DNA of 64,000 nucleotides, taken from positions 36,921,366 through 36,985,365 of the forward strand of contig CAIIXF020000001.1 in assembly GCA_903813345.2 (NCBI GenBank), in the 5' to 3' direction. The notes beneath the pieces are model-generated. The model made no database searches and was not told the DNA's origin. It saw nothing but the letters and a program-made list of their open reading frames with translations. The DNA is from Owenia fusiformis (lineage: Eukaryota; Annelida; Polychaeta; Sabellida; Oweniidae). This document shows, piece by piece, positions 16,721 to 51,500 of this stretch (positions within the stretch are counted from its first letter, which is position 1; every line of letters begins with the position of its first letter). The translations under genes and the position numbers were made by a program.

Positions 16721-18601
16721 CTACACTAACGTCCCTATTGTTGGATCTTCATTCGTACCGCTATCCAAAGCTTTGCTCCTCAGATAAACACTTCTAGTTA
16801 TTATACTATCCAAAGATTCGTTCCAAGGTATAACGTACATGACGTTGTCAGGGTTTTGTTCTAGAATAGCTTTACCCTGGTGTCTTCTCATACACAAACA
16901 GTAGGAAAAGCAGGATGCAATAACGATGACACAAATGCATATTGCAACTGTAATTGCTACGACAATCCCCAATAATTCAAGGAAATTATCATTTCTTTCG
17001 GAAATGCCAAAATCAGATTCGATTGACACTCCAGTTGCGTTTTCTTCAACATCAATCGCGTCCATAGCTGTATCAGTTGGGATTGTATCTACTTGCTTGG
17101 TTGTTCGTACAGTGTTAAAATAACTTTCCGAAACGTTTACATTCTCTGTGATTACATCCTCTGCTGATTCTGTAATCACGGGTATGAATATCCCAGTAGT
17201 TAACTCCATCTCACCACTAGACTCTTCGAAACCATGTTCCTCCACACCTTTTGTAGATACTCTAATCTGCGATGTTGTCGAGTCATCTCTATAAGGTGAA
17301 ACTGGTGAATGATCATTGAAAGTGACGTGAGTAGCCGGGACATCAGTATTGCCTACACGGTCGCGATTTACAGTTGTTTTCATTGCTGTTACCGCTGTTG
17401 TTGATATCGCAGATGTTGTCATATCAGATGGCTTTACTTTTGGTCGTGTATTAGCAGTCTCCTTTGTGATCTTTTCTTCAATGGTATGATAAGTTGTATA
17501 CAGTACATGGATCGGTTTGCTACCTATTGTTGTCGTTCTTGTCATGGAGTACGTTTGTATTGTAGGTGTCGTCCCATCAAACGCATTCGTATTTGGTTGT
17601 GTGATATCAGACTCTGTTTGTAGTTCTTCTTCAATGAAACTCGTACTTTGTTCTATAGTAGTGGTCTCGTTAAATCTTTTCATTCTCATCCAACTCTTTG
17701 TGGTCAATTCATTATCACCAGTTTGTCTGTTTGGGCTGTACCGTCTAAGTGTCGTCCCATTCCAACCAGAAGGACCAGTACAGTACATAGGCCCGATGAA
17801 TAAAGTGGAACGTTTTTGTATGATCTCCTTCAATTCCATGATACGTTCATCACACTGAAAAGTGTTGTAAATTATGTTGATCAAAGAAATATTGGTGAAT
17901 CGTTGAATGACTTTTGCTGGGAACGTTGTAAATCGGTTGTGACTGAAATCTAACTTTGTTATCCCCTTTGGCAAGTAGTTTACTTCTCTTGGCAGTTGAG
18001 ATAGCTTACAGTGAGAACAATTGAATAATCCAAGTTTTAGCGGGATATGAAAGTCCAGTATGGCTAATGGATTGTGACTGAGGTTTAACTCAATCAGTTT
18101 TCTCAATTTTTTGAAAGTCGTCTTCCCAATTTTCGATATCTCATTATTACTGACTTCAAGTCTAGTAACGTATTTTGAATTAGCAAAAATATTAGACTTG
18201 AGTTCAACAAGATGATTATAACTCAGATCCAAAATCGTTAACTTCCTCAATGGATAAAAAGTCCGATCCTCGATTATTTTGATTTCATTATGTGAAAGTA
18301 TGACCATTTCCAAGGACTTTACGGGCCGGAAAGTGTTATATGCTATAGATTCGATATTATTGAATGATAAGTCCAACAGTAGAAGACCAGATGGCATATT
18401 GGGGGATTTGGTCAACTCCGTGATGTTGTTGTAGTTGATCTCGAGGCTGGAAAGATTCATCGGCAGATTGTTCGGAACTGCAGTCAAACTATTGTTCAAA
18501 CATGTTGCTACGGTAGATGTGCACTGACATGTTGCATTGCACGGGTTCCCGTACGTGACATCATATAGATGCAGCAATAAAATCACAGTTATCCACATCA
18601 T
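16721..18601 (-). CDS. LRR type I transmembrane receptor, single exon
   Basis: One uninterrupted frame of 626 residues. I place the start at the ATG at 18601, because the nine upstream codons begin with GTG and this ATG leads straight into a signal peptide (MMWITVILLLHLYDVTYG). Next come an LRRNT cap (CNATCQCTSTVATC), about seven leucine-rich repeats (LLLLDLSFNNIESI, MVILSHNEIKII, LTILDLSYNHLVEL, RLEVSNNEISKI, ELNLSHNPLAIL, KLDFSHNRFTTF) and an LRRCT cap with Cys pairs. A Thr/Ser-rich stalk of about 230 residues, probably O-glycosylated, follows. The membrane helix is near 543-568 (LLGIVVAITVAICICVIVIA). The tail of about 55 residues has two tyrosines (MYVIPW, SVYLRS) and ends in TLV, a class I PDZ ligand form. 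The ligand is unknown; adhesion or immune recognition are family-level guesses. Confidence 0.87.
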   Translation of the reverse strand: MMWITVILLLHLYDVTYGNPCNATCQCTSTVATCLNNSLTAVPNNLPMNLSSLEINYNNITELTKSPNMPSGLLLLDLSFNNIESIAYNTFRPVKSLEMVILSHNEIKIIEDRTFYPLRKLTILDLSYNHLVELKSNIFANSKYVTRLEVSNNEISKIGKTTFKKLRKLIELNLSHNPLAILDFHIPLKLGLFNCSHCKLSQLPREVNYLPKGITKLDFSHNRFTTFPAKVIQRFTNISLINIIYNTFQCDERIMELKEIIQKRSTLFIGPMYCTGPSGWNGTTLRRYSPNRQTGDNELTTKSWMRMKRFNETTTIEQSTSFIEEELQTESDITQPNTNAFDGTTPTIQTYSMTRTTTIGSKPIHVLYTTYHTIEEKITKETANTRPKVKPSDMTTSAISTTAVTAMKTTVNRDRVGNTDVPATHVTFNDHSPVSPYRDDSTTSQIRVSTKGVEEHGFEESSGEMELTTGIFIPVITESAEDVITENVNVSESYFNTVRTTKQVDTIPTDTAMDAIDVEENATGVSIESDFGISERNDNFLELLGIVVAITVAICICVIVIASCFSYCLCMRRHQGKAILEQNPDNVMYVIPWNESLDSIITRSVYLRSKALDSGTNEDPTIGTLV

Positions 18602-18683
18602 CAGTGATCTTGCAACATTCAATAGCACTTATTGATTCATAAGTACGTTTTTCACAATTTTGAATAATTTTCTTCTATATACT

Positions 18684-25922: not shown

Positions 25923-27536
25923 CTAAACGAACTGTGGTTCTCTGTCATCATCAGCATAAGGAACCTCTTGTTCATCACCACCTTCAAATGCTGGAGTCTT
26001 GGATAAAGCAGCTACTGAAATAATCAATTTCAAAAATTTAAAAATGCAGATGACCAGAGGATTGTTATTGATTTTGACCAGCTGATATGAATTCATTAAA
26101 ACACTACTTGACATAGCGTGAATTGCAAAATAATTGATTTGGATACAAGAGGTGTCTGAAATCAAAACCGCTGAAATAAAAATCATGTTTCAGAAAACTG
26201 GTTCACATTGTACCACGGAATTGAGGAGCAAAAGCCATGTATCAACTTCTGTAGAATTATCTGAAGATCATATTAAACATATTATCTAAATTTTCTTTTG
26301 ATATGATGTGAAAATGCATGGCCTACCTGTTGAAGGATTGGTGTCTTCAGGTTGACTAGTTTTACTTGGGGCAACTAAAAGAAAAGTTAAAACAAAAATA
26401 TTAGTCAAATTGTCAAAGACAGTGTGGCATGCTTCTGAATATTTATATAATACAGGGTGTCATGAAAGTATGGCCCACATGTAACTTTCCACCATTTGTG
26501 AGTTGAACCATGATACTTGGCAAATCAATGTAACTTTGGATAAGCTTTAAAATGATATTCGACACATACTATGGAGACATTGGTAAATGTCTGCCTAGGG
26601 GGTGGACATACTTTCGGGACACCCTGTATATCAACAAAATCACTCTACAGCATTTCAAGTTACTGCCAAAAATTTAAAATAGCAGTTATGGCCACCAGTT
26701 TTTAAGATGGCTGCCATATTTTTGTGAAAAAGTGATTCGGATTCAATTAACATCATAAAAAGTATTATGCAAATAAACATATAAATATTACAATTTTATA
26801 TTATAAAATTATTATATATTATAAAAATACTGTAATATTGACACTAGAATAGTAAGCATTTTGAAACATGAGGATATATGGCTGGAGGAACCATCTATAT
26901 ACTTGGAATATTAATCATGTTCATGTAGATATCAAATTTAATTACCTGAGCTGACAGATGATGATGCTGCGTCTGTAAGAGGGGCTATATGAACTGGATC
27001 TGCCATGCCTGGTAGGCTCATTGCACCAGATATTTCCTCCTGCAAATTAAAGTACATGTTAGCGTCATGTTGTCTTGATATTTCCACATGCAAGTACTTA
27101 TGAGGGGCTATAGTAGACAGAAATGTAATTTTTAGTCCTGCAGAATAACACCATATTTTTATTAATGGTCCCGAAGGAGTATGTATGCTTTGTCTTTGCA
27201 TTTTGTTAATTAAAAATCAGAACTGGGCCAGTTTGGCACAAATGGGCCGAATATAATTTTGTAAGAAAATATTAGCTAGACGTCATCTCCATGTCATAGT
27301 CAGTGAACTGAACTAACATATTGTTTCTTCTGTATCATTATTTGTCACAAATCTAAATGGTTTCAAGCCATGACTCTATTCATTGGAACAACAGAGCAAA
27401 ACACTTACATCAGGGTTCATCTGAGAAGGCTGTACAAGGAGATCATTTGTTGAAGAGGCCTCTTTCTGAGATGAAGCCTCTTTCTGATCTGTAGTGTCAT
27501 CAGCATTTTCCTCATTCAGGCTCTCTAATGTTGGCT
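25923..27536 (-). CDS. ARHGAP45: RhoGAP gene exons 22-25: acidic tail and C-terminal PQFV
   Basis: Four small exons encode a disordered Ser/Glu/Asp-rich tail (DQKEASSQKEASS; YADDDREPQFV-stop). The final PQFV matches, from memory, the PDZ-binding C-terminus described for vertebrate ARHGAP29 (PARG1, partner PTPN13). The tail contains two copies of QKEASS in tandem. Confidence 0.85.
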
Positions 27537-30500
27537 CTGTTGTGAGATAAGAACATAATTCATTGCAATAATAAACCAAAATTGTAAAGGTCCAATTTTA
27601 AATCTTTAAATTGGCCCAATCAAGTTCATGCTTAAAGACCAAGGTCTCAAATAAATGGAATTCACATATGAAGGTCCAAAACTAAAAATGTAACGCTAGC
27701 TAAGTTCAAGGTGACATTTAGAGGTCAGAAACATTTAAGAATCTTTGATTGTTTCATTGTTCCAAGGTTCCTTTGAAGTCTATGGTGGCAAATGTAATGC
27801 ATCTTGAGATTTGCCACCACTCAATGGCTAATAAGTTACACAGACAAAAATATATGAAACAGTCCCAATTTTAGTCAAGCAATCAATTGACCAGGAACTA
27901 AATGTTAAGAGTTCTGAGCTCATATATAATATTACATACTATCATTTATTCTTAAATAACTAGAATACCCTGGAGCAGTAAATTCCACCAAAATACAACA
28001 TCCAAGTATTTTATAAGATTATTCATCAGTAGCCGTCTTGGAAATTCCTTCTTGAAAAAGGGTCCATTTCGATGACAGGTCATCTCAAACCACATAACTA
28101 TCCTGTTGGCATGCTCACAATAAAATCTTTCACATAATAACAGTTTAAGGAAGTGATATAGGGAGCTGGGAAACTTACCTTTAGGCTGCATTGACTTAGG
28201 GTAAACATTCTCAGCAGGTCCAAACAGCATCTCTGCATTGATAATGAGGAGCTCAACAGACCTTGTCTGAAAAGGTGTATCCTTCAGGGAGTTCAGAGAG
28301 GCATTTCCTTCGCTGAAATATGAGAAAATATATACAATGACAGCATTTAGATATCCAGGATGGATCGTTAATGAACATATTAGAATAAATGAAAAGCCTG
28401 ATTGATACAAGCTTAGCAGTTATCTCTAAAAACATAATTTCTTCAAAATAATTTAGCTTGGTGAATGGTAGTTCCCAGTAAAAATATATAAATCTTTTCA
28501 TAATATGCTTAACTTTTAAAATAAAGCAATATTTTGTGCTTCTTTCCTACACTGTTATTGCCTATTGGCAAGGTTATGAAATTTGAGAGTAGATGACATC
28601 ACTACCTGAGTGAAATCTTAAAAGATGGTAGAGTATATATATATTATATGATTATAGCTATCATATCAGGATAGAAATGGTCTGGCCAGGAATGTCCCTT
28701 TAAGGATCAGAATAACAGAAACTGTAAAGGGCTGTAAACCTTGTTAATAATTGAAACGAAGTAAAAAATATTAGAATATTATTTATAGAGGTGCAAGGAA
28801 ATGAAGATATGTACATCCTTGAAAATGAGATGCTTAATTAAGTAAAAACTAGAAAACAGCAACGCCAAAGCAAAGCAAATCCCATCGAACAGCCATGGCT
28901 GGCATTTTTACAAACAAAGTACATGTATATAGAAAAATCGTAAAATAACATTTTCAAAATGGTTGCTCACTATAGCCAAATTGTCATCAGAAAGTGTAAT
29001 ATGCTTCTTAGTAGGCACATATAATATTTCAACAAAATCACACACATGTTCATGTAAATGGTGGCAATTTTTCAAAATGGCCGCCTACTTGCCAAAATGC
29101 ATAAGACAGTGTGCAATGGTTATTCACATCACAAAATCACAATTTCATTCACAAAATCGCTCTATTACTTTTGAGTTATAGTACAAAATGTAAAATAACA
29201 CATGTAAAAATAGTGGCAATTTTTCAAAATGATGGCACCTACAAAGGTGTCATTAGACAGTGTGCCATGCTTATAGTATTCACATACCAAATATGAACAA
29301 AATTGCTCCATCGCTGAAAATCGGCTTTCAAAAGAACTTCTACCACAATAGGGTGTATGTGTACTAAATATGAACAAAATCGTGCCAAAGGTATTTGAGT
29401 TATTGCCCGGACGGACGTACGGACAGACGGATGCATGGAGGCATTCCCTATTAGACTATTAGTCACATGAAACATTCAGTCTTGTGACTTACCTTGGTCG
29501 GAGGAGTGTTGGACCAAACACAATGCCAAGATTACAAGCTCCCATCTGATTATGTTCTTCCATCTTACTCACACGACTTAAATGGTGCATCATCATTGCA
29601 CATGTTTTAAAGTTTTGAACAGGGAGCTTCTGGACTAGAGACTTCAGCGTTTGCAAAGTTTCGGCACTGCCACCTGTTTCTGTTCCTTGGTCTTTTTCCG
29701 CCATTTTGATGAACTCAAGGTAAAGTCTAAATGTAAGCAGGGGCTCTGGAAGCTGGAGAAAAACCCAGAAATTTATTTTTCTACTATGTTTATATACATT
29801 ATCTGTATTATATTAAAGCATAATGAAATTGCACAAAATAATGTGTATTGATATGTATATGTGATGAAAGCATGACATTTTGTACAGGTGGTAATATTCC
29901 TTTACAATTCTAGATACAAAACATTAACCATATCATTTCTTTAACTTTACATATCCAAGATGGTTGACAATTAAAATTTGTAATTTTACCCTTTCTCAGG
30001 CTGGTGGATGGTTCCAAACTTAAAATTAAAATCATAAGTATATGAAACAAACATACCTGCCGTAGATATAGCTTTAATACATTGGATATAACATTGACAT
30101 TGTGTTCTGAGAGATCGACGGAGGATTCATTGTTCTCAAAACTCTCACACAGTTTCTCCACCTTTGATTTCACTCCAGACACCCTGTAGATCCCCTAAAT
30201 TGACAATAATGAAAACAAGTTCAGTGGGATACACCCTGTAGATATACTAAATTGACAATAATGAAAACAAGTTCAGTGGGATACACCCTGTAGATATACT
30301 AAATTGACAATAATGAAAACAAGTTCAGTGGGATACACCCTGTAGATATACTAAATTGACAATAATAAAAAACAAGTTCAGTGGGATACACCCTGTAGAT
30401 ATACTAAATTGACAATAATGTAAACAAGTTCATTGGGATACACCCTGTAGATATACTAAATTGACAATAATGTAAACAAATTCAGTGGGATACACCCTGT

Positions 30501-33500
30501 AGATATACTAAATTGACAATAATAAAGACAAGTTCAGTGGGATACACCCTGTAGATATACTAAATTGACAATAATAAAAAACAAGTTCAGTGGGATACAC
30601 CCTGTAGATATACTAAATTGACAATAATGAAAACAAGTTCAGTGGGATACACCCTGTAGATATACTAAATTGACAATAATAAAAAACAAGTTCAGTGGGA
30701 TACACCCTGTAGATATACTAAATTGACAATAATGAAAACAAGTTCAGTGGGATACACCCTGTAGATATACTAAATTGACAATAATAAAAAACAAGTTCAG
30801 TGGGATACACCCTGTAGATATACTAAATTGACAATAATGTAAACAAGTTCATTGGGATACACCCTGTAGATATACTAAATTGACAATAATGTAAACAAAT
30901 TCAGTGGGATACACCCTGTAGATATACTAAATTGACAATAATAAAAACAAGTTCAGTGGGATACACCCTGTAGATATACTAAATTGACAATAATGAAAAC
31001 AAGTTCAGTGGGATACACCCTGTAGATATACTAAATTGACAATAATGAAAACAAGTTCAGTGGGATACACCCTGTAGTTACCCAAAATGTCCATAAGATA
31101 TTAGCCTATAAAATTTGCACATTTGCACGTTTTAAAATTCACCAATTATCTTAAAAAAATTTTGAACAGAGCTCCTATATTTCTATGCATCAGCCTACAA
31201 AATTTTAACAAAACCTGTCACCTGGTATTTGAGTTATCAATCAAATATTACATTTTTTACGAAAAATCCTATCCTACACCCATAAGGCATAAGCCTGTAA
31301 AATTTGAATGACATCTGTCATCAGTTATTTGAGTTATAGCCCTGAAACACTAAAGAACAAACGGATGGCTTCTCTATATCCTGACGAACTTAGATTGGTA
31401 GGATAATGAGAATAATGATGGAAAGAGACATACCTTTATATCTATTCCTCTTTCTTCTATCTCTTTGACACATTTCTGCACCAAAATGGGGATTTCTACA
31501 TTGGTTTCTTTGACATGAGCCATGAAATCTACACCAAAGGTAGTCATCCTCCTAACCGGTGGCTTACTTCCACATGGCACCCCTAGGACCTCTAGGCACT
31601 TCTTATGGCAGGCTAGACCACACTGGAAAAATGGTGTATAATCTTAATGATCTAAATAAAGTGCAATATCTTAACTTAAGGAAGTACAAGTGGAAGTGGA
31701 AAAATGGAAACTGGAAATTGAATATTAGATGACAATGGTGAGAACCTAGAATAGATGAGATAATTTTCTCATATTTCCGTTTAAAGACAACATGTTCTGT
31801 ATTCTGAGCTTTGTTTAATAACACAACCTTTCATGCTCAGTTAAAGGGTGACGCATATCGTTTAGCAAATCGAACGCTCGTTTCTGGTGTTGCTCACCTT
31901 TTAGTATAAAAGGCCCGATCCCGGAATAATACTCAAGGGTTCACAGGTTCGAGGTCGTTGTGTCAACACCTCTAACTGTTATATAGCATAAGTATATTAT
32001 AGATCGTCACACATTTATACAAGAACACAAATGTGTACAAAATGTCCCCACCAATGGGTGATCCCATGAAATGGTTATCCTGAAAATGAGTAGACAAGAC
32101 TTTACTGACACAATTTGAGAACGGAAAATCCAAAATGGCTGCCTTAAAATTTACCCAGAATCCCCCAAAATTAGCTAGTTCTAGATTTTCATACTAAGAA
32201 CCACCCCTGAAAATTTGAAATTGATCCGTCAAACAGTTAAACAAAACTTTACAGACAAGATTTTAGGATGGAAAATCCCAAATGGCTGCCTTGACATTTA
32301 CCCAGAATGTCAAAAAACTAATCAGTTCTAGATTTTCATACTGAGAATCATCCCTGAAAAGTTGAAATTGATCTACCAAACGGTTCACCTGAAAACACGT
32401 AGACAAGACTTTACAGACAAGATTTTAGGACAGAATATCCAAAATGGCTGCCTTGACATTTACCCAGAATGATCAAAATACTAATCAGATCTAGGTTTTC
32501 ATACTAAGAATCACCCCTGAAAATTTGAAATTGATCTAACAAACGGTTCACCTGGAAATGCGTAGACAAGACTTTACAGACAAGATTTTAGGACGGAAAA
32601 TCCAAAATGGCTGCCTTGACATTTACCCAGAACGCCAAAAAACTAATCAGATCTAGATTTTCATACTAAGAATCATCCCTGAAAATTTGAAATTGATCTA
32701 CCAAACGGTTCACCTGGAAATGCGTAGACAAGACTTTACAGACAAGATTTTAGGACGGAAAATCCAAAATGGCTGCCTTGACATTTACCCAGAACGCCAA
32801 AAAACTAATCAGATCTAGATTTTCATACTAAGAATCATCCCTGAAAATTTGAAATTGATCTACCAAACGGTTCACCTGAAAACGTGTAGACAAGACTTTA
32901 CAGACAAGATTTTAGGACGAAAAAACCCAAAATGGCCGACAATAAAAAAGTGATTATGAGTTTTTGCTGATTTCCTTTTACAAAATTATCACATATAACT
33001 ACTGTTAACAATAACTAGGCTTTTTCAACAAAGTACACCTGAAATTATTTATAAAGCTACTAAATAGTTAAAGTATGAAAACTCAAAAACACCATTCAAT
33101 ATGATACAAAGTATTATCGCGCGCTAACTTTTCTTCAGACATTCAAAATGGCTGACATGACTGAGCTAACAGGTCCAAAACCTAATCAGATGTAGAATGA
33201 AGTGAGCTGAACAAGATGTTAAAGTTTTAAAAGCAACTGTGAAGCCGTTTTTCTTAAAGTTTGCAGACAAGGATTTTAGCATTTGACCTCAAAATGGCCG
33301 ACAGGAAGTAGCTATCAAGTTTATTTTTTTTCATCCACATCTGTATGCACTCACAAGTTATTCCTGAAAATTTGAAGGTGATACCTGTAGCGGTTTTGGA
33401 GAAAACTGCCGGACGTCCGGACGGACAGACAGACAACCAGACAGACAGACGGACGGATGCGCCTAGGACGACAATATGGCCCCACACTATGTGGTGGGGA

Positions 33501-45500: not shown

Positions 45501-48500
45501 TGGTGCATCAAACTTCTAATCCTGGCCAGAATATCAGCCTGCAAGCAACATACAATTTATAGTGACTGTTTGCCTCAAGACTTTTCATCAACTAAATCTA
45601 GAGCAGCTAGACACCTGTTATTCAAACCCTTTTAGACTAAATTGAGTAACTGGATAAAATACTGGGTAAACAGTTTCAAAATGTTTGTAACACATGACGT
45701 TTTTTTCAAGGCTGGGTAGACCACTTTCATTTTTTGATATACAGGGTGTTCCAGATGTTTCAGGAATGATGCTGTGTTTTATTGGTTTTTTTTTCAATCT
45801 TACTGAAATTTTGACACAATTTGTCTAAACATGTTTTGAATAAGTTGGGGAAGTTTCATATCGCGAAGTTTAGTAGTCTTAATTATATGGTTGCTATAGT
45901 AACCTAGGGGTAGGGTAGGTGGAGCAGGTGTAACAACGCGCAAAATATATGAAATATTTGTAAAAAAAAAAAATTTGTACGAAATGTGACCAAGTATTAG
46001 GTTGTCAGAGTTGGATCAAACTTGTCAGTAATTAAACAAAAATGAAGGTGGATTCCAAGAAAGTAAACAAATGTCATCATCCTTGATCATATCACAATTT
46101 AATCACCTGCCATGTCATGAGTCACAAAGGAGAAAAAACACAGGTCATTTTGGACGAGCGGCCATCTTGAAAAGTGAAAAGTCATTAGCAAAGGAAAACC
46201 TTCGACTTAGGCAACACACATCAATCTGTGACAAGACATGACATGTGTGAATAACAGTTTTCTGCAGCAGGCACAATTAAACTCCTGATGAATGCACATT
46301 GGGGACTCAATGATGGTAACCTCTAGAGTGTATGAATTGTACAAGCGGTTCAAATCTGGAAGGGAAACTGAGACCGATTATCCAAAATGTGGACATCCGA
46401 GAACAGTGAGAGCGCTAACTAATGCGGAAGGGATAGATGCTGAAATAATGATGATGGCTAATAAAGGGTGTGATAACATTTTTAATTTCCAGGAATCCAC
46501 CTTTATTCTTTTTATTTTCCAACAAGTTTGATGCGACTATGACAAATTAATACTTTGAACACTTTATACAAAAACTACTATTTTTACACAAATGTCATGT
46601 TTTGCGCGTTGTTACACCTGCTCCACCTACCCTACTCCTAGGTTACTATAGCAACCATATTATTCAGTCTACTGAGTTTCATGATATGAAACTTTTCAAC
46701 CTTATTCACAACATATTTGGACACATTTTGTCAAAAAATCAGCTAGATTGAAAAGAAAACCAATAAAATACAGCATCATTCCTGAAACATATGGAACACC
46801 CTGTATAGCTGGCCATTGGTCATTTTGTCCCCTGTAGAGATACAATGATAGTGTGTGACATGAGCAAAGGACGCACAGCAGTCAATTTCTGTACATACTC
46901 TTTGATATTTCCAATGTAATGGGGGTTTATATGCACTGCATACTGTTTGTTTGGTTCGACATCTGAATGTTGAAACTGCATATGATCGTTAAAATACCAA
47001 AACGATTCTCCAAAGGGAACAATTACCAAACCCTTTAATGGAACATTTTCCTACTTTGATTTTCTCCAGCTCTTGTTGCCTGTTATTGGCCTCCACTATA
47101 CATGCCTTGTAGGTAGTCTCAGCCTCAACAGCCTAAAACAACACAATATTCTATTAAGGGAGGCAACAAAGTATATAAAATACACAACAGTGGTATGACA
47201 GTCTGTGTTCTGACAGTTCATGTTCTAGCATGAGATTGGTTAAAGTGGCCATGCAAAAAAGCATTTCACAAGCTCTTACGCTTGATCATTTTCAAATCCC
47301 CAAATCTGCTAAAAGCACTTAACTGATGATATCTCATATCATGTATATTTTAACTCAAGACTGATCATGTGTGAAACAAGATAATTGCAAGCCATGCCAT
47401 TCCTGTCAAAATGTTTATCACATGACTGATTTTCATTATTTTGATCCTTGAGAATATGGAAGTCAGGTATGATTGAAGTGTTTATGCTTAAAGTAGCTTG
47501 TGTTGTGATTCCAGTATTCAATTAATAGTATCTCAAAGATATAATAATAGCAGGTCTTGTCTCCTACCCTGTGTAATGCCTCCTCTTCCAGCTTCTTTCT
47601 CTTATCAACCTTGCTCTCAGCCTTACTACTACTCTTTTCTTGAACCTCATACTCAGCCTTTGCCACCGAATCCCTGGCTTTGTCATACTCCTGCTGTCTC
47701 TGTATATACAGGGCCTTTGCTTTCTGCAGGTTAATGACTGCATCTTGCTGAAATGATATAAAAGTAGGATGACTTAATTGAACTGAATTTTTTCACTGTA
47801 TTGCATGTAGTTCGGAATTAATAGGTACATGTACAAATGAACAATACATGAAGCAGTAACTTGAAGTTTGCACAACTTGATTGTTCATATACATATTCTA
47901 TTTTAAGTTCTAACCAAATGGAACAATAGGCAGCAATAAAAAACAAAAACAAATCCAAGACTTAAAATAAAATTACGAGAGTCTCTTTCATAAAATGTGT
48001 GAATGTGTATAGGGCATGCACAGATGGAGGATTTCTCGATATCTGACATAATGTCAATTCCTTATTTACCATTTTCCTACACTCTTTGGCCCACAGATCT
48101 TTTAACGCTTTTCTAGATTTCTCATGTTCATTTCTTCTTGCTTCTAAGGGCTGAAAATATAAAAGTTATATGCATCATGCTTTATTACTCCAGCATGTGA
48201 ACAGATTTCTATCCATTGTAGTACATACATTTCAACTCTTATATAGCAGTACATTTCAACTCTTATATAGCAGTACATTTCAACTCTTATATAGCAGTAC
48301 ATTTCAACTCTTATATAACAGTACATTTCAACTCTTATATAACAGTACATTTCAACTCTTATATAACAGTACATTTCAACTCTTATATAACAGTACATTT
48401 CAAAAAATTGAATTTTATTGAATTATTTGTGTTGAAAGGCACTTACCTTTCAAGATTGATTCATGGAATAAAAACACAGCCCCCCCACAAAGAAGCAAAC

Positions 48501-51500
48501 CCCCCAGAACAAAACATTTTTAAAATAAAAAAATTATATCTCATTTTGAATTTTCATGATAGAAATAGCAGTGGAGTTGAAATTAGCAGCCATTCAGAAA
48601 TTCCATCTGATCAGGGAACTGAACCTATTAAATATCATTATTTGAAATATGACCAAAGTTGGTAAAGAAGCAAATGATGATTTTTTCATGAAAAATAGCA
48701 GCAGTTTTAAACCAACTTGCCACTTTGAGTAAAAACCCGATTTACACTTCTACAATCTACACCTATGAAGTACAGTTCCTAAATTAAGCCAAAACATAAA
48801 TCTTAGCAAAATTGAAATTTCCTTTTGAGCAGATATAATCAAAATATGAACCCCATATAGGATAGTCTCTATATATTTGTAGGCATACATATACTTTGTC
48901 CAAAATTTATTTAAAAGTAACTCTCGAGGATATCAAGTTTACTGTATCTTACTTCAATGAATTTGTGTGTATTAATGAGAGCACATGTGCCTTGAAGCAT
49001 GCCAGCATGGTCAAGATCCTGGTCCAGAGCAGTGCAATAAATGGATTGCATGGGGAGGAAGCTCTGAAATAACAAATAAATCAAGTTCAAAGAATAGTGA
49101 TAGATGACAAACAAAAAGTAGAATTATCAGCCCTTATCTACTTGAAGTGGTTGTTACAAAACAGGAAGGCTGGTCAGGGTCGGAAGGTGGGGATCTTTTT
49201 GTTGCATAAAATAAACCATTTCACCACCCTACCTGAGTATTATCCCGGAGATTCTTTAGTGACAAGGGGTCTAGATGGTTTGTAAAAGTACCTTTCTAAA
49301 ACCCAAATCACGGTTACACCTGAATTTAAGGAGCGTTATACCCTAAGGTGCTTTTCTTAAAACACTTAGTCTAATTCCAGTAAATGTTAATTCAATTGAT
49401 ATGAATGTTTTGAGGTTCTATAAATATATCAGCTCAATAAAGAATACAAAATTTTTACCATATCTACAAATCATAACCTCAACTCAAACAACAGACTTTA
49501 ATTAAGATACTGCTTTACATGTTACAACATTGCAAGCCCTGAACACTATTTTCAGCTTTTATTCCAAAAGTTTATATGCTGGTTATATACATCATGCTAT
49601 ATAGTGATAAATCCTTTTATCTAATCAATCAATTTACTGAAGTCGTAGCTAATTATAATATTGTCACTTCCAGCATTTCTGAATGTCGGTGGAGATTCAA
49701 ATTATTTTCCTTATGCAAATGGCCTATTATAACTTAAAGCAGAAAACACGTTCGTAGCTTATTATAATATTGTCACTTCCAGCATTTCTGAATGTCGGTG
49801 GAGATTCAAATTATTTTCCTTATGCAAATGGCCTATTATAACTTAAAGCAGAAAACACGTTCGTAGCTTATTATAATATTGTCACTTCCAGCATTTCTGA
49901 ATGTTGGTGGAGATTCAAATTATTTTCCTTATGCAAATGGCCTATCATAACTTAAAGCAGAAAACACGTTCGTAGCTTATTATAATATTGTCACTTCCAG
50001 CATTTCTGAATGTTGGTGGAGATTCAAATTATTTTCCTTATGCAAATGGCCTATTATAACTTAAAGCAGAAAACACGTTCGTAGCTTATTATAATATTGT
50101 CACTTCCAGCATTTCTGAATGTCGGTGGAGATTCAAATTATTTTCCTTATGCAAATGGCCTATTATAACTTAAAGCAGAAAACACGTTCGTAGCTTATTA
50201 TAATATTGTCACTTCCAGCATTTCTGAATGTTGGTGGAGATTCAAATTATTTTCCTTATGCAAATGGCCTATTATAACTTAAAGCAGAAAACACGTTTGT
50301 AGCTTATTATAATATTGTCACTTCCAGCATTTCTGAATGTCGGTGGAGATTCAAATTATTTTCCTTATGCAAATGGCCTATTATAACTTAAAGCAGAAAA
50401 CACGTTCGTAGCTTATTATAATATTGTCACTTCCAGCATTTCTGAATGTTGGTGGAGATTCAAATTATTTTCCTTATGCAAATGGCCTATTATAACTTAA
50501 AGCAGAAAACACGTTCGTAGCTTATTATAATATTGTCACTTCCAGCATTTCCGAATGTTGGTGGAGATTCAAATTATTTTCCTTATGCAAATGGCCTATT
50601 ATAACTTAAAGCAGAAAACACGTTCAATATTAGATAATTCTTAACAAGCCTTATAGGCTAAAATCACTGAATTTTACAAAGACGTGGACCAGCACCTCAA
50701 GACAAGTAATAATAATACTTTTACTTAATGAAAGGAAGAGGGTGATCATATTCCCAGTTTTACCTTCCTAATTCTTCTAATAATAAAACAAATCACATGT
50801 TGGGATTGGCCAGGGAATGTGACTTTATAACAATTCTACAGAAGGAAAAGGATATTTCTCACTAATGGGAGCGCAGTGTGTTTATGAGTATCTGAGTGGG
50901 AATTAAGATTTATAGATATGGTTTAAAATGTTTATTCTCATTTGAGCTAATTATAATTAAAGCTAATTTGAGCTAATTATTTTAAAACAGCCAATCAATA
51001 TTGGAAATTGACCCCTCAAAACACATTGTTATGATAACAGGAATTTGATGGATGTTCAGACTTTTTTCATTCTTTTAATGGTAAACAGACAAATTGGTTG
51101 TTAGGTCCCTATATGGAAGAGAGGTCTGAATTTTGGGCTTTATTAATGACCTTTGCCTAAAATGTAAGGTATATAGTCATGTTTCTTTCAAAATAATGAA
51201 TTTGGGAGAGAGAAATTATTGATATAAAGTATATTTAAACCTGTCAAATATTACATATTATAATATGATACGTGGCATCACAATAGCTAGAACAATTGAT
51301 AAACTGGTCGATTTTATGATTTATGTCAAATATATGACCTCAAATTTTATTCTGGCCATTGCCAGTTATAGAACATCAAATCAACTTGAATAAATATTAA
51401 ACAAGGCATTAACATGACAAAATGTCACCACCTAGTTGCTCACAATATTATGAGTTCAATCTTAAGTCAGGTTTGAATTTCTGAGGACTTGTAGAAAATT

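Follow-up and report, generated by a model that had tools for sequence, protein, structure and literature searches.

Minisatellite-like tandem duplications of an intron/exon boundary have been described in amphioxus under the name mirages, in the genes Adh3, BflGb6, and BflGb9 (PMC3087553, excerpts). According to these excerpts, the mirage in BflGb6 is of the acceptor type (150–160 bp, 6 or 3 units), cluster boundaries lie outside homogenization, and RT-PCR together with the Adh3 data is said to suggest that regular splicing is undisturbed. The same excerpts cite the model of Rogers, in which introns are gained via duplication of AG/GT sites.

The array reported here, at an acceptor junction of a RhoGAP gene of Owenia fusiformis, is a mirage, a kind already described in amphioxus. 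Its repeat unit spans an exon-intron boundary, its repeats carry potential cryptic splice sites (16 decoys with CAATTTAG), and its units have evolved in concert, as seen in block duplication and in the TAT of 16 of 16 decoys, with the exon-boundary unit (GGG) exempt; the boundary unit on the intron side is unremarkable. As far as the excerpted account goes, the amphioxus mirages share boundary duplication, possible cryptic sites, exemption of the boundary from homogenization and, in BflGb6, the repeated acceptor with the exon start. They differ from the present array in unit size and copy number (52 bp and 16 decoys here, compared with the BflGb6 figures above), and here a transposon-end word lies in the unit, the phylum is probably another one, and seven such arrays occur in a small sample of one genome. 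In keeping with a probable annelid host, the linker family PF16915, annelid-specific to judge by its name, has 3 matches above its cut-off; its absence from 14 control genomes has no bearing on other animals, as RhoGAP likewise scores in 0 of the 14. The minisatellite of the human interferon-inducible gene 6-16 (IFI6/G1P3), with its multiple splice donors, is likewise a tandem repeat that lies at a splice site and provides several of them, but it is on the donor side and its unit is shorter. As in the Rogers model, so far as it is excerpted, tandem copies carry splice signals, whereas the copies at this locus lie within an existing intron and no new intron was seen.

A preliminary description made from this DNA is supported in part by what follows; it lacked the assignment to mirages, the recurrence of such arrays in the genome, and the identity of the exon word as a transposon terminus.

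Host gene and anatomy of the array

The array is hosted by a RhoGAP gene on the minus strand. The features that concern it, within the window (the whole stretch of DNA analyzed, 64,000 nucleotides), are:

31434–31622, minus strand: preceding coding exon (exon 18; end of the C1 domain to GIDIK), with its own acceptor TTCCAG/TGT
30179–31077, minus strand: minisatellite array, 52 bp x 17.2, across the acceptor junction (TRF and unit list)
31067–31077, minus strand: end of the array on the intron side, CTACAGGGTGT, 11 bases that recur in the exon at 30179–30189
30247–31038, minus strand: 16 decoy acceptors, CAATTTAG/TAT (unit list)
30195–30202, minus strand: true acceptor, CAATTTAG/GGG, splice at 30195/30194 (unit list and frame)
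30057–30194, minus strand: coding exon of 138 nt (labeled 19 in the preliminary description), starting GGG ATC TAC AGG GTG (GIYRV) and ending CAG/GTATGT
29493–29752, minus strand: following coding exon, LPEPLLTF...FGPTLLRP, donor AAG/GTAAGT

The exon at 30194–30057 reads GIYRVSGVKSK...LKLYLRQ. A protein assembled manually from five exons, with one wrong residue (R for S) at the last junction, matched Pfam RhoGAP (PF00620, E 4.4e-46) and C1 (PF00130, E 1.8e-7), both domains running across the flanking exons, and its best PDB matches were chimaerins, whose GLYRVSG aligns with GIYRVSG. These matches confirm that the repeated bases lie in a coding RhoGAP exon (IYRV), as had been proposed. The Arg of GIYRVSG is presumably the arginine finger.

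In the 64-kb window, TRF places the array at 30179–31077 with period 52, 17.2 copies, and 95% matches, in agreement with the approximately 17 units first reported; one place was found for it in the assembly, where counts are lower bounds. The minus strand of the array holds 17 AATTTAG acceptors (16 decoys and the true one), separated by 16 whole units of 52 nt (12 units) or 53 nt (4 units). Each unit combines the last 36 bp of the intron with 16 positions of the exon, 13 of which are the same as the exon while three differ (GGG/TAT), so the construction from an intron/exon junction holds, with 36 bp of intron in place of the earlier estimate of about 37. In its intron part, the last unit is identical to the most frequent unit as far as the splice site, and the periodic stretch opens and closes on identical 11 bases, CTACAGGGTGT. 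The left flank was also considered as a decayed unit and rejected, since 473 of 500 shuffles (mean 8.7) reached or exceeded its local alignment score of 7.0.

Along the transcript, unit types 1–16 run C T D E F C F C F G D E F C C C (letters assigned by us). The block D-E-F-C recurs eight units on, so whole blocks were copied. The excerpts of PMC3087553 report aberrant assembly of one mirage in a draft genome, and the present array might likewise be an assembly artifact; its distinct unit variants in non-periodic order, its position in a 62 Mb contig, and the similar arrays at other loci described below make this very improbable.

The last G of each decoy falls at 31031, 30979, 30927, 30875, 30823, 30770, 30718, 30665, 30613, 30560, 30508, 30456, 30404, 30351, 30299, and 30247. 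Apart from small unit variants, decoys and true site have their upstream intron sequence in common; the true acceptor is followed by GGGATCTACAGGGTG, and each of the 16 decoys by TATATCTACAGGGTG. At the true acceptor the frame of exon 18 continues without insertion (GIDIK/GIYRV). Use of the nearest decoy would add 52 nt and shift the frame, leading to a stop 33 codons past exon 18, and all 16 decoys lead to a stop 25–34 codons past exon 18, including the three whose inserts (732, 261, and 156 nt) are divisible by three. Both the row of decoys ahead of the true acceptor and the frame-breaking 52 nt of the nearest one had been anticipated in the preliminary description.

In the window this was the sole array found on a junction, its other arrays being judged by unit only. 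They include a 109 bp x 9.0 array (49643–50625, 98% matches) between exons of the RhoGAP gene and a 24 bp x 7.4 array (48226–48403, 99% matches) approximately 75 bp upstream of one of that gene's exon acceptors. A 162-bp tandem repeat of similar consensus occurs at 32241–32936 and at two places outside the window (L071:1698–2501 and L062:2814–3182; handles with L denote other stretches of the assembly); with three separate places, it is probably a dispersed tandem family. On the minus strand, 16721–18628 holds an open frame of 635 residues that by eye resembles a leucine-rich-repeat membrane protein.

Junction arrays elsewhere and the mark of the true site

Mirages are common in the Owenia fusiformis genome. 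Thirty of 48 RhoGAP matches and 30 of 42 RhoGEF matches yielded 51 stretches totaling 171,480 bases. In these, 28 distinct arrays pass the thresholds of at least 3 copies, a period of at least 20, and at least 70% matches; their units total 1,233 bp. In this gene-centered sequence, a splice junction is contained in the focal array and in six or more others. Of the 28 arrays, seven is thus a minimum, because the other 21 were only partly checked against exons. The six are:

L039: acceptor array, 90 bp x 12.9
L061: acceptor array, 35 bp x 21.6
L021 with L073: donor array, 51 bp x 21.8 in L021, running on in L073
L035 with L071: donor array, 62 bp x 6.5 in L035, running on in L071
L036/L040: donor array, 49 bp x 14.4
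L064/L067: donor array, 81 bp x 12.5

Five of the seven, including the focal one, overlap a Pfam match, and the exons of the other two (L035 and L036/L040) were read by eye. Three more junctions (L045, L050, and L057/L060) are duplicated about twice.

Two of the donor arrays have open frames. In the 51-bp array (L021:2044–3154 and L073:1–566), the frame stays open from the exon for 388 codons, at 17 residues per unit, so alternative donors could add 17-residue repeats. The 81-bp array (L064:1654–2670) has a unit of 75 exonic bases plus GTAAGT and a frame open through nine units of 27 residues each. Because these frames run open through many units, stops would not reveal the use of other donors there. 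Beside a RhoGAP exon lies an array of 37-bp units that exceeds 2 kb (L037:2057–3120 and L072:1–1348).

The preliminary description had proposed that GGG after the AG distinguishes the true site from decoys with TAT. This is correct for the focal array, where all 16 decoys have TAT, but it fails as a general mark. At L061, GGG is kept in 18 of 20 decoys; seven of the 20 are identical to the true site over 28 exon bases, and six of those seven also over the 15 bases before it. At L039, two of 12 decoys are identical to the true site over all 38 exon bases of the unit. Within the RhoGAP gene itself, 11 other acceptors (read by eye) have at +1 G in four, C in four, A in two, and T in one, the last being the acceptor of exon 18. 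With decoys that match the true site and an exon that starts with T, GGG/TAT is no general rule.

In all seven junction arrays, as read, the exon-adjacent unit is where the conserved protein meets the array. Judged from this meeting point in the sequence, the simplest common rule would be that splicing takes the copy adjoining the exon body, as expected under exon definition. If the decoys were used instead, the array could act as a dial that shuts off the GAP domain through early stops, graded by copy number. The decoys do have the same upstream intron sequence as the true site, bar small variants, and every one of them brings an early stop; but similar arrays lie at other genes and on donors, where common regulation is not expected, and the RT-PCR reported from amphioxus (PMC3087553, excerpts) is taken to suggest regular splicing, which leaves a dial improbable.

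Origin of the array and the transposon-end word

The focal array is, with good probability, a mirage-type minisatellite in which a 52-bp boundary was duplicated and amplified, and in which splicing is exon-proximal, the decoys stay intronic, and the array itself serves no function. On this explanation, a 52-bp piece of the intron/exon boundary would have been tandemly duplicated and then amplified, several units at a time being copied as blocks. The array is bounded by 11-bp direct repeats, CTACAGGGTGT, and slippage or unequal exchange between them may have produced the first duplication; an origin of this kind from flanking repeats of 5–10 bp is attributed to Haber and Louis (cited in PMC6947457, excerpts). 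The presence of CTACAGGGTGT at both ends would then be the overhang left by such an event, although partial loss of a unit at a later time could have produced it as well. The last unit, within the exon, would be held by selection on the protein, which would keep GGG there; the change from GGG to TAT in all 16 decoys could, on the other hand, reflect selection for weak decoys rather than a chance founder. The exon and its donor are presumably recognized as one unit, so that the exon-proximal site would normally be spliced and the decoys would remain in the intron, and nonsense-mediated decay would clear any leakage to decoys. Given such splicing and decay, the array itself would most likely be functionless.

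The exon and the unit have the word TACAGGGTGT in common, which lies within the bounding 11-bp direct repeat and is the end of a high-copy DNA transposon. The window contains it 23 times (18 of them inside the array), whereas shuffles give an expectation of 0.10. Two elements in the window are relevant:

45738–46807, unstranded: DNA transposon copy in another intron of the RhoGAP gene, with terminal inverted repeats of 211 nt, 88% complementary, and ends TACAGGGTGTTCC
26450–26629, unstranded: short element with inverted ends of 26 nt beginning ATACAGGGTGT

The 13-base end TACAGGGTGTTCC was found at 1,177 places in the assembly, and its reversal at four; among the first 100 places listed, many are inverted pairs approximately 1,050 bp apart.

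In a variant of the duplication origin, which we regard as possible though doubtful, the intron-side TACAGGGTGT was a transposon end that by chance matched the TAC AGG GTG T codons of the exon, and the resulting direct repeat, 52 bp apart, started the array. The abundance of TACAGGGTGTTCC relative to its reversal and the start of the array on CTACAGGGTGT are consistent with this, as is the finding of TACAGGGTGT in two of the 28 sampled array units (the focal one and that at L044), with seven sites outside arrays in 171 kb. The form present in the unit, TACAGGGTGTNNCCCA, also occurs at 17 places outside the array, compared with two for a reversed control. Against such seeding, the exon word alone could explain the match, the unit is by eye unlike any of the five other window copies past ten bases, and no inverted repeat of at least 14 nt was found at 31000–31450. 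In these comparisons, neither the inverted ends nor the similarity beyond TACAGGGTGT that would make the transposon the source of the unit was found.

Searching with the unit at up to three mismatches gave 49 matches, compared with 3 for the control; 17 of the 49 lie in the array and the other 32 outside it. Ten of the 32 were read by eye, and seven of these (L002–L007 and L010, as opposed to L001, L008, and L009) resemble a different dispersed repeat that has TACAGGGT(T/G)T as an internal motif, which also speaks against the transposon. A pattern search showed almost no inverted partners, a result of little weight because one alternative of the pattern could not match; a separate search for inverted repeats covered six of the ten. 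The array at L044:1823–2122 (33 bp x 9.1), whose unit starts with TACAGGGTGT, lies 104 bp from a RhoGEF match.

That the exon word is also a transposon terminus might further suggest that the repeat came first, with the start of the exon either overwritten by the repeat or resembling it by coincidence. This is hard to reconcile with a GIYRVSG that is encoded by the exon and conserved in RhoGAP proteins, and with a last unit whose intron part equals the commonest unit up to the splice site, and we consider it highly unlikely.

Frequency of junctions among tandem arrays

If array units were placed at random, approximately 1 to 2.3 of them would be expected on a junction, an estimate that assumes (rather than counts) 120 to 300 junctions in approximately 159 kb outside arrays. 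Seven were seen, or six without the focal array that started the search. The donor word AGGTRAGT was also searched genome-wide as tandem triplets with periods of 30–60, by word alone and irrespective of real exons. It gave 1,131 triplets for 33,163 single occurrences (3.4%), in contrast to control words TGARTGGA (534 of 47,644, 1.1%), GTAGRTGA (326 of 42,927, 0.8%), and AGTRGATG (513 of 33,618, 1.5%), so that the donor word stands in tandem triplets 2.2–4.5 times as often as the controls. The first 100 donor-triplet matches listed represent six or seven arrays, and with such clustering the significance of the excess is uncertain; some control-word matches sit in units that also hold donor-like GGTAAGT or GGTGAGT. 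As a single word, AGGTRAGT is rarer genome-wide than its reversal (33,163 vs. 47,644), while outside arrays in the window and L011–L070 it occurs 31 times vs. 19 for the reversal (256,630 bases, overlaps kept).

From these counts we tentatively suggest, as a conjecture that could well fail, that minisatellites of this genome arise preferentially on exon-intron junctions, that rows of decoys are consequently present in hundreds to thousands of genes, and that the exon-proximal copy is chosen even against decoys equal to it in the acceptor and 28 to 38 exon bases.

Work on how the spliceosome chooses among many equal sites usually relies on engineered constructs. The genome of Owenia fusiformis offers natural rows of near-identical donors or acceptors, in which splice-site choice could be tested repeatedly within one species. 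Since some rows have differences beside the site and others have none, the effects of proximity, exon definition, and local sequence would be separable by ordinary RNA-seq. If junctions are truly favored for the birth of minisatellites, this would also hint at how tandem repeats originate, and possibly introns too.
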